From Photobacterium leiognathi (lineage in GTDB: Bacteria; Pseudomonadota; Gammaproteobacteria; Enterobacterales; Vibrionaceae): 64,000 bases of DNA. Below, piece after piece: positions 27,280 to 29,750 of the stretch. The stretch is taken from the NCBI RefSeq assembly GCF_030685535.1, contig NZ_CP131599.1:930001-994000 (forward strand), written 5' to 3'. Each line of letters opens with the position of its first letter. Position 1 is the stretch's first letter. The notes under the pieces are model-generated. The model was given only the letters and a program-made list of their open reading frames with translations, was not told the DNA's origin and searched no databases. Position numbers and translations under genes: made by a program.

Positions 27280-27800
27280 CTAACGTTCCTTATCTAAAAA
27301 AGCATGCTTTTCTAGAATCAAGATCATCCACTATTAATAGTGATAATGATCTCAAAAATAACTAATGGACGTAATCTATGCTAAAAAACGATACGTGAAA
27401 ATATCAGTTTCGGAATATTAAATTTTATATGAACTTTGTTCGATTGAGATTTGTAAATGAATTGCTGCAATAATACTGATGAGTTGTTTATTTTATTTAA
27501 AATAATGTTTTATTTGAATAAGCATGGGGTAGAGGATAAAAAATTAAAATCCGTATTTAAGGATATTGCTATATAACGAGCCACGGTGAGTTTATCGTTT
27601 TAACTCATTTCTGATTAAAGATCATTTCTTACTTTCTACATTTCAAATAAACACTTTGAAACAAAATAATACAATCAAGCTTATGATATTTATGAATTAA
27701 ATTGATTATCATTATCTAGTTTTATGGGCATTCTTTTATGTAAGAGTAAGAATGTTTGTTAATAAGCTATTAGTATTATTTTTAAGCTAAGAGGTAAATA
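27280..27800. promoter_or_regulatory. 521-base divergent intergenic region with operator-like palindrome and Fur-like site
   Basis: Near the L,D-transpeptidase start lies CACTATTAATAGTG (27329-27342), a perfect 14-bp palindrome, inside GATCAT (27322-27327) and ATGATC (27346-27351). Near the kinase start, at 27698-27716, a site with 15 of 19 matches to the Fur consensus (xAAATT-GATTAT-C-ATTATC pattern) lies 85 bases before the TTG. In such AT-rich DNA the Fur match is weak evidence. No gene is seen in the middle. Confidence 0.5.
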
Positions 27801-29006
27801 TTGGACGAGTATTCAATTCATCTAAAACGACAAGGTTTTGAGCTTCTTGAGGATATTGGAAGTGGACTTTCTGGTAAAACCAAAAAAGCTAAGCAAAACT
27901 CCTTAGAAAGATTTGTTGCCGTAAAGTTTTTCGATAGCGTATTTAATCGAAATAACAAAGAACTAAAGAAAAAGTTTAAGAGAGAAGCATTCATACTCGC
28001 AGAGGTACAGCATCCAGCGATTCCGTATGTGATTACTCACGGTGAAGTTAAATGTGAATACGATTCTGTTCCATATATTGTTATGGAGTATATCGATGGT
28101 ACAAACTTAGAAGATTATGTGCAAAAGAATGGTGTCATCGATCAACGACAGGTCATCACAATTGCAACTCAAATCCTCGATGCATTATCACTTGTGCATG
28201 CAAAAGGAATTATTCATCGAGACATAAAGCCCTCAAATATTATGCTGTCTTCATCTGGTCACGCTTACCTGATTGATTTCTCAATTGGATGTGCCCCTTC
28301 AGGGAACCCTAAATTTACTAGAGCAACAAGAACTGGGGACCACTTAGGTTCTGTGGAATACATGTCTCCAGAACAAAGCGTCGATATGAAAAACATCGAT
28401 AACCGTACAGACATCTACTCTTTGGGACTGACGTTATGTAAATTGTTAACAGGCACACCAACGCCCAAGGCTCTGGACAAGCCTGAACTCTCAGTTCCTT
28501 ATGCTTTAAGAAATGTAATAAATAAGGCTTTAGAGTATGAAGTAAGTAATCGGTATCAAAATGTCAATGACATTTTGAGAGAGTTAAAAAGCATTTCTGG
28601 TGCCGGGCATTTTGCAATTAACACACCAAGTAAAGCACTTTGCTCTAATTTAAAATGTCCAGATGCACAATGGTCACCAAATGGTTTCTATAAAGGGGCT
28701 AACTTTATCGATAACTGCATTGATATTCACTGTACTTCCTGTGGGGACAAATTAATTTATCAATGTAAATGTGGGTACCCAATAGCCGAAACCCGTTTTT
28801 GTGGTGGTTGTGGTAGTGAGCTATTCAAAGTTCCTGAATGCAGTAGTTGTGGATCCTATCTAAATAAACAATATATGGGTAAAGATACGTCAAAAGGTTG
28901 TAGCAAATGTTTGTCAAAACGAGTCCAACCTCAGCCTCAACAGGCTAATTGGGGACAGCTACAACAACAACCTGCGCCAATGGACTTTGATGATATTCCA
29001 TTCTAG
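27801..29006 (+). CDS. Ser/Thr protein kinase with zinc ribbons and an SSB-like C-terminal tail
   Basis: A 401-residue protein. Residues about 13-265 form a Hanks-type kinase: glycine loop GSGLSG (20-25), ATP lysine K42 in VAVK, helix-C Glu62, HRDIKPSN (139-146) and SVEYMSPEQ (184-192); the metal motif is DFS (159-161) in place of DFG, but the Asp is kept, so it should be active. Residues 281-370 hold twelve cysteines in pairs (281/286, 311/314, 322/324, 334/337, 347/350, 367/370), enough for about three zinc ribbons. Residues 374-401 are Q/P-rich with NWGQ and end PAPMDFDDIPF; E. coli SSB ends PMDFDDDIPF after a similar Q/G/P/W linker. There is no membrane segment. The start is TTG with AGAGGT before it. 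The next gene follows after 24 bases. Recruitment to SSB-binding repair proteins is inferred. Confidence 0.88.
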   Translation: MDEYSIHLKRQGFELLEDIGSGLSGKTKKAKQNSLERFVAVKFFDSVFNRNNKELKKKFKREAFILAEVQHPAIPYVITHGEVKCEYDSVPYIVMEYIDGTNLEDYVQKNGVIDQRQVITIATQILDALSLVHAKGIIHRDIKPSNIMLSSSGHAYLIDFSIGCAPSGNPKFTRATRTGDHLGSVEYMSPEQSVDMKNIDNRTDIYSLGLTLCKLLTGTPTPKALDKPELSVPYALRNVINKALEYEVSNRYQNVNDILRELKSISGAGHFAINTPSKALCSNLKCPDAQWSPNGFYKGANFIDNCIDIHCTSCGDKLIYQCKCGYPIAETRFCGGCGSELFKVPECSSCGSYLNKQYMGKDTSKGCSKCLSKRVQPQPQQANWGQLQQQPAPMDFDDIPF

Positions 29007-29060
29007 AAAACAGAATACTAATTTAGCGTTATGTTAATTTGTCAATTTCGGAGAAATAGG

Positions 29061-29606
29061 TTGTTAAAGCTTAGTGAAGAAGTCCAGAAGTTAAAAACTC
29101 AAACATTAACCCTTTCTGGTATTGCATTGTTCATTTCCATTACAGCGGCATTACCAGAAAAAATTGCAATTATTGGTTTAGATCTTTCCGGAAGCAAAGA
29201 AACTGCAGGCTGGTTTCTATTAATCATTCTTGGCTATTTCCTTCTCAAGTTCACTGTATTTTCCACTTTTGAAGTGGTTAAAAAAGAGCTACCTAGTTGG
29301 ATCAACTATAAAAGTAAAGCTCTTCGTGGAGATGTCATCGGACTTTCTGAACAAGAAATCTTCGATGAATATGAAAGACAGGACCAACATCATGTGAATG
29401 AAGACCTCGGTACACTTTCAGGTGAAGCAGCGGATATTAAGCGTAAAAGAAGCAAATTGGAGTATGATTGTAAATCAAAGTTTGTTTTAGCGTACAATTT
29501 ATGGCTATATTTCAGTGACATAATTTTCCCAATTGTTTTTGCTTGTTACTGCTTTTGGGCTCTCTATTGTTTCTTAAAGCATGGTGTAGTATTCAAATTT
29601 ACGTGA
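29061..29606 (+). CDS. Membrane protein paired with the kinase, unknown
   Basis: Not recognised. From the TTG at 29061, which has GGAGA 7 bases ahead, the product is 181 residues; an in-frame ATG at 29031 without a ribosome site would add 10. Parts in order: a short coiled coil (SEEVQKLKTQTL), two membrane helices (about residues 13-31 and 47-68 of the shorter form), a charged cytoplasmic stretch of about 80 residues with Glu/Lys-rich coiled coil (LSGEAADIKRKRSKLEYD), and one or two C-terminal helices (about 142-172, FSDIIFPIVFACYCFWALY). Both genes of the pair use TTG with a good ribosome site. A membrane partner beside a soluble kinase resembles effector-sensor pairs in phage-defence loci; the role is inferred. 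Confidence 0.65.
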   Translation: MLKLSEEVQKLKTQTLTLSGIALFISITAALPEKIAIIGLDLSGSKETAGWFLLIILGYFLLKFTVFSTFEVVKKELPSWINYKSKALRGDVIGLSEQEIFDEYERQDQHHVNEDLGTLSGEAADIKRKRSKLEYDCKSKFVLAYNLWLYFSDIIFPIVFACYCFWALYCFLKHGVVFKFT

Positions 29607-29690
29607 CAAGGTAAGCAAGGTTATAACGTTACACTTTTACCTTTTCCTAATACTTCCCCCAATAAAAAACTGCCTAACAAGCTTTGCCCT

Positions 29691-29722
29691 CAAATGAGTT
29701 AGCCATTCAGCTAACTCATTTG
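29691..29722. terminator. Hairpin between the kinase cassette and mesD
   Basis: A perfect 13-bp stem (CAAATGAGTTAGC / GCTAACTCATTTG) with a CATTCA loop lies between convergent genes. No long T-run follows on either strand, so termination strength is uncertain. Confidence 0.6.
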
Positions 29723-29750
29723 TGATCACCAAGCAGAGCTTCTAACTACC

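Follow-up and report, generated by a model that had tools for sequence, protein, structure and literature searches.

Why does a stand-alone Ser/Thr kinase of Photobacterium leiognathi end in almost the same residues as the single-stranded-DNA-binding protein (SSB) of its host? The gene raising this question lies in a stretch of 64,000 nucleotides that was analysed as a whole, hereafter the window, and its product is divided as follows.

27801..29006, + strand: Ser/Thr kinase gene, 401 aa, TTG start, C-terminus MDFDDIPF
27837..28592, + strand: Hanks kinase domain, residues 13-264 (Pfam, alignment, fold match to PknB)
28641..28910, + strand: zinc-ribbon region, residues 281-370 (12 conserved Cys, DZR matches, AlphaFold)
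28911..28985, + strand: variable Q/P linker with NWGQ, residues 371-395 (alignment, pLDDT)
28986..29003, + strand: SSB-type tip FDDIPF, residues 396-401 (translation, host SSB comparison, homologue tips, column entropy)

The open reading frame 27801-29006 (+) is unbroken and encodes 401 aa with the C-terminus QPAPMDFDDIPF, which closes with PMDFDDIPF. Close relatives such as L096-L098 have an ATG start one codon earlier (MLDEYS); this codon reads ATA in the window copy, hence the annotated start TTG. The Pkinase family (PF00069) was matched at residues 13-229 (E 2.7e-42, 145 bits for a cut-off of 31.7), and the AlphaFold model (mean pLDDT 86) has PknB of Mycobacterium tuberculosis (PDB 5u94) as its best fold match. 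The best NCBIfam profile is PknB_PASTA, at 210 bits under its cut-off of 450 and with no PASTA part seen, and the MADS6 profile reached 135 bits, under its cut-off of 460. The OB fold (PF00436) was not matched in the Pfam search of the kinase, and the protein is no SSB. The motifs read in the original prediction are all present in the translation and the alignment, namely VAVK (K42), E62, HRDIKPSN (HRD D141, N146) and a DFS at D159 that belongs to a family-specific DFSxG. In a family alignment of 38 rows, sharing 37-89% identity with the window protein, K42, D141, N146 and D159 are invariant and E62 is kept in at least 90% of the rows, so that the kinase appears competent for phosphotransfer, its catalytic residues being invariant or nearly so. 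The DFS had been regarded as an oddity; it is there, but it is not peculiar to this protein. Indeed, DFG is replaced by D(F/L)SxG in 38/38 rows, with D159, S161 and G163 invariant and F160 changed to L in one row (P0015). As DFSxG is the signature of the family, the assignment to the Hanks fold stands, and a kinase killed by DFS was ruled out, the motif being a family-wide trait and not a lesion. Compared with the Hanks kinases of the PknB/Stk1 fold, with which it has the kinase fold and the catalytic residues in common, the window kinase thus differs by DFSxG instead of DFG, by the lack of a visible PASTA part and by its C-terminal zinc ribbons and SSB tip.

The region behind the kinase domain had been described as a twelve-cysteine zinc ribbon. 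The window protein has 13 Cys in this region, and 12 of them are kept across the family alignment (C281, 286, 311, 314, 322, 324, 334, 337, 347, 350, 367 and 370); C314 and C370 are found in at least 90% of the 38 rows and the other ten are invariant. The double zinc ribbon family DZR (PF12773) was matched by 19/38 family members at E 0.01, and AlphaFold block means are 84-92 across residues 281-370. The last Cys is separated from the six-residue tip by 2-32 residues, depending on the row, and the last 24 residues (378-401) are modelled as disordered (pLDDT below 50), as would be expected of an exposed short motif.

The C-terminus of the host SSB is NEPPMDFDDDIPF, ending in PPMDFDDDIPF. Comparison of both C-termini shows that the kinase tail is the host SSB tip minus one Asp, and the WGQPQQ of the SSB linker resembles the NWGQ of the window kinase. 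With respect to the SSB C-terminus (DDDIPF), the window kinase therefore has in common an acidic-Ile-Pro-Phe end behind a disordered Q/G/P linker, and differs in that it has no OB fold, that the tip is borne by an enzyme and that two Asp stand in place of three. The window tip FDDIPF has one Asp fewer than most relatives as well, a form found in 6/120 homologues listed. An SSB-like linker (WGQ/WGR) was found in 12/174 DFSxG kinases among the matches listed, all 12 being at least 66% identical to the window protein. WGQ is present in the main SSB of all eight kinase-bearing genomes of the family and absent from a second SSB of G859.

The tip is a trait of the kinase family. In a first homologue search, 120 proteins were listed of 6078 that passed; 113/120 of them end with an acidic residue, at most one further residue and then [IVL]PF, and 58 end with exactly DDDIPF, so the SSB-type tip that had been predicted on the kinase is real. 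The seven others are P0102, P0105, P0113, P0114, P0116, P0117 and P0121, of which P0102, P0105 and P0116 appear truncated. In the alignment, the final P and F are invariant in 38/38 rows (column entropy 0), and mean column entropy is 1.63 bits for the kinase domain, 1.59 for the ribbons, 3.05 for the linker and 0.73 for the last six positions; the linker before the tip is the most variable stretch of the protein. Conservation of the tail in close homologues, on which the earlier proposal was meant to stand or fall, was thus observed, and a misplaced stop codon, another weakness foreseen, was ruled out because relatives terminate at the same place as the window protein.

A second search, with distant family members as queries, added 79 new proteins among the matches listed. 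Over both searches, D(F/L)SxG is present in 174/199 proteins listed and the tip, in a looser pattern, in 165 of these 174. Among the remaining 25 listed proteins, two have the tip (P0101, a fragment, and P0145) and 23 have none, and 22 of these 23 have DFG. Counts of 165/174 versus 2/25 indicate that the DFSxG motif and the tip together mark one family. The D(F/L)SxG proteins without the tip are P0102, P0105, P0113, P0116, P0132, P0149, P0172, P0173 and P0180, several of them short. Four apparently full-length DFSxG kinases have an altered tip (P0113, NIRF; P0132, DLTF; P0149, DPPF) or none (P0172), and these would count against a docking role of the tip. P0182 is a DFSxG kinase without the Cys-rich ribbon region whose C-terminus is still DDDIPF, so the tip behaves as a separate module. 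Codons of the tip vary synonymously in nine kinases (by eye; I as ATT/ATC/ATA, P as CCG/CCA, F as TTC/TTT); since they change between genomes while the peptide is kept, they point to purifying selection on the tip peptide. Named family members belong to Vibrio, Shewanella, Enterovibrio, Aliivibrio, Photobacterium, Microbulbifer and Thiodiazotropha, and further to Parabeggiatoa, Undibacterium, Herbaspirillum, Ramlibacter, Archangium, Melittangium and Sorangium. As a side observation, P0113, P0114, P0115, P0117, P0154 and P0172 carry roughly 100-300 extra N-terminal residues, in which no Pfam family was matched (E 0.01; for P0172, E 1), and in some of the N-terminally extended members FPF or LPF closes the protein right at the last ribbon.

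The tip is also specific. Control kinases were taken from 80 generic loci of an unrelated genome scan, of which 78 were readable to the stop codon and two ran off the locus. The tip is present in 0/78 of these controls, none of which has even PF at the C-terminus; 77/78 have an HRD-type motif and none has DFSxG. In a set of 2744 ORFs of at least 150 codons, from loci that partly overlap, 19 have the tip and all are this kinase or SSB. The nine kinase-bearing genomes were further scanned at DNA level for Asp-Asp-Ile-Pro-Phe-stop, which gave 23 matches, and none for the reversed pattern; the 23 comprise 9 kinases, 10 SSBs, 2 TIR-type proteins, one of them weakly assigned, and 2 non-genes (one 13-codon frame, and one match followed by TGG and no stop). 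Lastly, 32 of 4043 distinct ORFs of at least 120 codons in the fetched loci end with two acidic residues and (I/V)PF, being 12 TIR, 11 SSB and 9 kinases by short-motif assignment and none else; this count speaks of specificity and not of frequency, as most of these loci had been retrieved with these very proteins. A chance tail was ruled out by the contrast of 113/120 with 0/78, by column entropy and by the nine-genome scan. Within a genome, the kinase tail and the SSB tail agree in codons no further than the common protein requires (by eye), and recent capture of SSB tail DNA was rejected, there being no sign of recent recombination. Betaproteobacterial-type SSBs end in FDDFEDDIPF in 117/120 of those listed, the named ones being Usitatibacter; a lineage match between kinase and SSB tips found no support, since the putative beta-like kinases end in DMDDDIPF and other forms.

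The kinase gene moves horizontally, and in two loci (L097 and L101) it is flanked by cassette-type repeats on both sides. It is sporadic: it was found, window genome included, in 8/329 genomes of the host family (Vibrionaceae), in 1/52 genomes of the host genus (ribbon query) and in 2/369 genomes of a class sample, and G975 and Vibrio sp. HI00D65 carry kinases that are 99.7% identical. A C-terminal query of the phylum and order samples gave three and one weak matches, respectively, besides the window genome, with L084, which is no kinase, among them. The plasmid search with the kinase returned generic kinases only, none covering 80% of the query; E. coli genomes and phages gave no match with the kinase, and viral contigs scanned with the ribbon region gave no relative. 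Kinase contexts were read at seven other loci of the family (one of only 3 kb) and at one outside it. Repeats resembling attC sites flank the kinase in L097 (7 + 12 further copies) and L101 (19 + 19), and stand on the downstream side only in L096 and L102. When single strands were folded, L101 and L097 gave the outer R'/R'' pairing, with moderate z values of -1.2 to -2.1. The kinase flanks in L098, L099 and L100 do not match the attC-like repeats found elsewhere, so the cassette state is seen for only some copies. An integron integrase over the curated cut-off was identified in 4/8 kinase-bearing genomes of the family, namely G860 (about 186 kb from the kinase), G788 (about 87 kb), G836 and G975, and was not found in the window genome (G000) or in the three other kinase-bearing genomes. 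The BLAST search for the attC-like repeat in the window gave 0 copies. Two short sequences beside the window kinase may be remnants of cassette edges.

27766..27777, + strand: possible eroded 5' cassette edge GCTATTAGTATT (weak, by eye)
29013..29033, + strand: possible eroded 3' cassette edge GAATACTAATTTAGCGTTATG (weak, by eye)

At the corresponding positions, L096, L097 and L102 carry GTTAGTATTC at the 5' edge and GAATACTAACAA at the 3' edge, the latter followed by the attC-like repeat. The G+C content is 38.6% for the kinase gene, 35.1% for the next gene and 42-43% for three flanking genes.

The SSB tip binds a pocket that is common to many replication and repair proteins. Docking by the SSB tip with local phosphorylation by the kinase is the reading that we favour, with a probability of roughly 0.55. 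In this mechanism, the last residues of a stand-alone mobile Ser/Thr kinase would work as the C-terminal tip of SSB does; borne on a flexible linker, they would dock the kinase in the common SSB-binding pocket, and the docked, active kinase would sit at forks or on ssDNA and phosphorylate SSB clients or their neighbours. The zinc ribbons would probably bind nucleic acid or protein and control kinase activity, and the most likely purpose would be an anti-phage (abortive) response or a response to replication trouble. Because the exact residues are kept on a flexible arm of an active-looking kinase, the tip would most simply be a docking label. A regulatory role of the SSB tail has been reviewed (PMC9917605), and docking by imitation has a parallel in TLK2, a kinase that reaches its substrate ASF1 by a short motif copying the normal histone client of ASF1 (PMC8826447). 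TLK2 differs in being eukaryotic and in that its motif is N-terminal and a histone mimic. We know of no special kinship between TLK2 and the window kinase.

The original prediction treated the tip as a feature of the kinase. As a family trait this holds, although it proved too narrow, because the tip recurs on a family of TIR-domain proteins. In G788, a genome that also carries the kinase, L165 (= L181, G788:C2:1023310-1024158) encodes a protein of 283 aa with a TIR domain of the CAP12/PycTIR type (PF10137, E 1.2e-30), which matches PADLOC TIR effectors and PycTIR and has the C-terminus AEPPMNFDDDIPF. The TIR gene lies about 22 kb from the kinase and about 64 kb from the integron integrase of that genome, with 22 copies of the attC-like repeat in the 20 kb around it and 19 further copies around the kinase. 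TIR relatives were found in 16/329 genomes of the host family. Six of the 16 have an SSB-like tip (L181-L184, L187 and L188, the last as DRDVPF), L185 ends in DDDKPF, seven have no tip (L186, L189, L191-L194 and L196) and the C-termini of L190 and L195 are not readable. On plasmids, L197 (Vibrio plasmid) ends in KNDVPF, and L198 and L199 are without the tip; among 16 relatives on viral contigs, six have the tip (L200, L204-L208), two end in DKPPF (L202, L203) and eight have none. The variants DDDKPF and DKPPF would not be expected, from their residues, to fit the known SSB-client pocket. As in the kinase, the linker before the tip varies among TIR relatives. Beside the TIR gene are attC-like repeats within the locus in L181, L182 and L184, and cassette-type edges in L183 (by eye). 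The tip-bearing subfamily of CAP12/PycTIR-type proteins thus occurs in several genomes as integron cassettes, while its fold and enzyme are unrelated to the kinase and many members lack the tip. The window genome itself has, outside the window, a 209-aa frame ending in KVIDFDDDIPF (L157; L179:8803-9432 (-), G000:C1:843803 onwards), whose N-terminal part is apparently incomplete and whose TIR assignment is weak (PADLOC TIR effector, 9e-9; no TIR Pfam). This frame adjoins integrase-like genes (by eye) and a HipBA-like pair.

Such a tip on two unrelated enzymes fits a common sensing module better than common substrates, for a TIR enzyme, assumed from its family to be an NADase, has no need of a protein to act on at the fork. 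The tip could then keep the protein silent in the SSB-client pocket, and changed occupancy, caused by massive ssDNA or by an SSB or SSB-client of the phage, would free the kinase or TIR enzyme to act on targets elsewhere in the cell. Several systems are known to be triggered by phage SSB (PMC10732053, PMC12887533); phage SSB is the trigger of AbpAB, Retron-Eco8, Hna and Nhi, which recognise infection through SSB biology, and none of which is said, in the available text of these sources, to carry an SSB tip (PMC10732053, PMC12887533, PMC13381803). On the other hand, the modelled kinase tail is disordered, with pLDDT below 50 and no sign of a held state, and we regard silencing in the pocket as possible, if unlikely. 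It shares with docking and local phosphorylation the need for the tip to bind SSB clients. More broadly, and tentatively, at somewhat short of even odds, the two families may belong to an unrecognised class of mobile immune proteins, in which unrelated enzymes with one appended SSB tip would be plugged into the replication and repair hub and set off by phages that disturb it. DFSxG kinases, CAP12/PycTIR-type TIR proteins and perhaps others would be members of this class. If this is true, immune effectors would be addressed, and possibly alerted, through the SSB interaction network of the cell.

Returning to the docked kinase, several observations bear on its purpose. Ten chosen proteins, eight from kinase contexts and two from the slot upstream of the YkuD gene described below, were scanned with PADLOC. 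A known defence system was found among the tested genes in 2/7 family contexts, namely (i) an Avs2 homologue at L098:3413-7888 (-), 1.6 kb upstream of the kinase and on the opposite strand, and (ii) a type I-B retron at L100:5114-9325 (-), downstream of the kinase, consisting of a reverse transcriptase and an ATPase-TOPRIM protein and lying near a phage-type integrase, with a 193-aa protein between kinase and retron. Furthermore, P0168 (510 aa) has an AbiJ_NTD3 domain (182 bits for a cut-off of 32.5) in front of kinase, ribbons and a DDVPF tip. These neighbours and the AbiJ fusion are hints of a putative defence role, and mobility together with the defence neighbours would lend partial support to a link with phages. 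The best PADLOC match of the window kinase is PD-T4-6 (PDLC04042, E 5.4e-63), covering kinase residues 9-264 only, and PD-T4-6 profiles were also matched by the kinase domains of the 5 other family members tested. PD-T4-6 and other stand-alone defence kinases are single-gene Ser/Thr kinases, as here; the PD-T4-6 profile leaves the ribbon and tip of the window kinase uncovered. Stk2 is likewise a stand-alone defence kinase.

The kinase could also serve its host as a DNA-damage kinase, carried by integrons for stress survival and not for phage defence. The gene of G1371 sits among metabolic-looking genes, with no visible defence context (by eye), and integrons carry all sorts of cargo besides defence genes. 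YabT of Bacillus subtilis, a Hanks kinase tied to DNA and recombination, offers a precedent for such a purpose: it is a putative transmembrane kinase with a DNA-binding motif, is activated by DNA and phosphorylates RecA, and an SSB tip is not mentioned in the abstract of that work (PMC3708118). Sporadic presence, the cassette mobility of some copies, the AbiJ fusion and the tip-bearing TIR proteins point instead to immunity, and make a purely host-serving role rather doubtful.

Another reading would make the enzyme domain secondary, the tips acting as decoys that flood SSB-binding pockets and block the recruitment of repair and replication proteins. The near-identity of the kinase tip to the host SSB tip agrees with this; however, the catalytic residues are conserved as much as the tip, which argues that enzyme activity is under selection, and a protein of low copy number would be a weak competitor for tetrameric, abundant SSB, so that a decoy function seems improbable. 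It is very improbable that the tip serves integron recombination itself, and neither cell nor defence: attC sites do act as folded ssDNA, which SSB binds, and both tip-bearing families include integron cassettes, but kinases of Thiodiazotropha, Parabeggiatoa, Undibacterium, Sorangium and Archangium keep the tip equally, as do TIR genes of viral contigs and of a Vibrio plasmid, all of them settings that may lie outside integrons.

Defence kinases, TIR effectors, SSB-triggered defences and the SSB tip itself are already known. A description of a kinase with an SSB tip was not found in the open-access literature (titles and abstract openings among the matches listed; subscription papers are mostly missing from it), and to our knowledge the SSB tip, a classic docking motif in the DNA metabolism of bacteria, is usually discussed as something that SSB alone offers its clients. 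If docking of the tip-bearing kinase is correct, the kinase and TIR families would demonstrate that a label of six residues can direct an enzyme to the replication hub, and they would be candidates for tying phosphorylation and NAD-type immune enzymes to phage replication. The SSB-binding pocket is regarded as a drug target, and tip-bearing proteins would be natural competitors for it. Further systems could be sought by way of proteins other than SSB that end in DDIPF, and removal of the last Phe is a simple prediction, testable in days.

The immediate surroundings of the window kinase differ from those of its relatives, and the gene that follows it is the one below.

29031..29606, + strand: 191-aa protein, about three predicted membrane segments

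This protein matches no Pfam or NCBIfam family, was not found next to the kinase at the seven other family loci, and has as its only plasmid match a hypothetical protein of Desulforapulum (37% identity). A 193-194 aa protein, 77% identical between the two loci, follows the kinase in L098 and L100 and is absent after the window kinase. A conserved operon partner was rejected, as no neighbour is common to all seven other family contexts. The slot upstream of the YkuD L,D-transpeptidase gene, in which the kinase lies (window 27280-29750), is an apparent insertion hotspot. In the YkuD region of relatives, no other window gene was found near the YkuD gene; the gene content of the slot differs among the relatives read, five in number (L151-L155), with no empty site seen, and in L154 it is occupied by an FRG-domain candidate defence gene.
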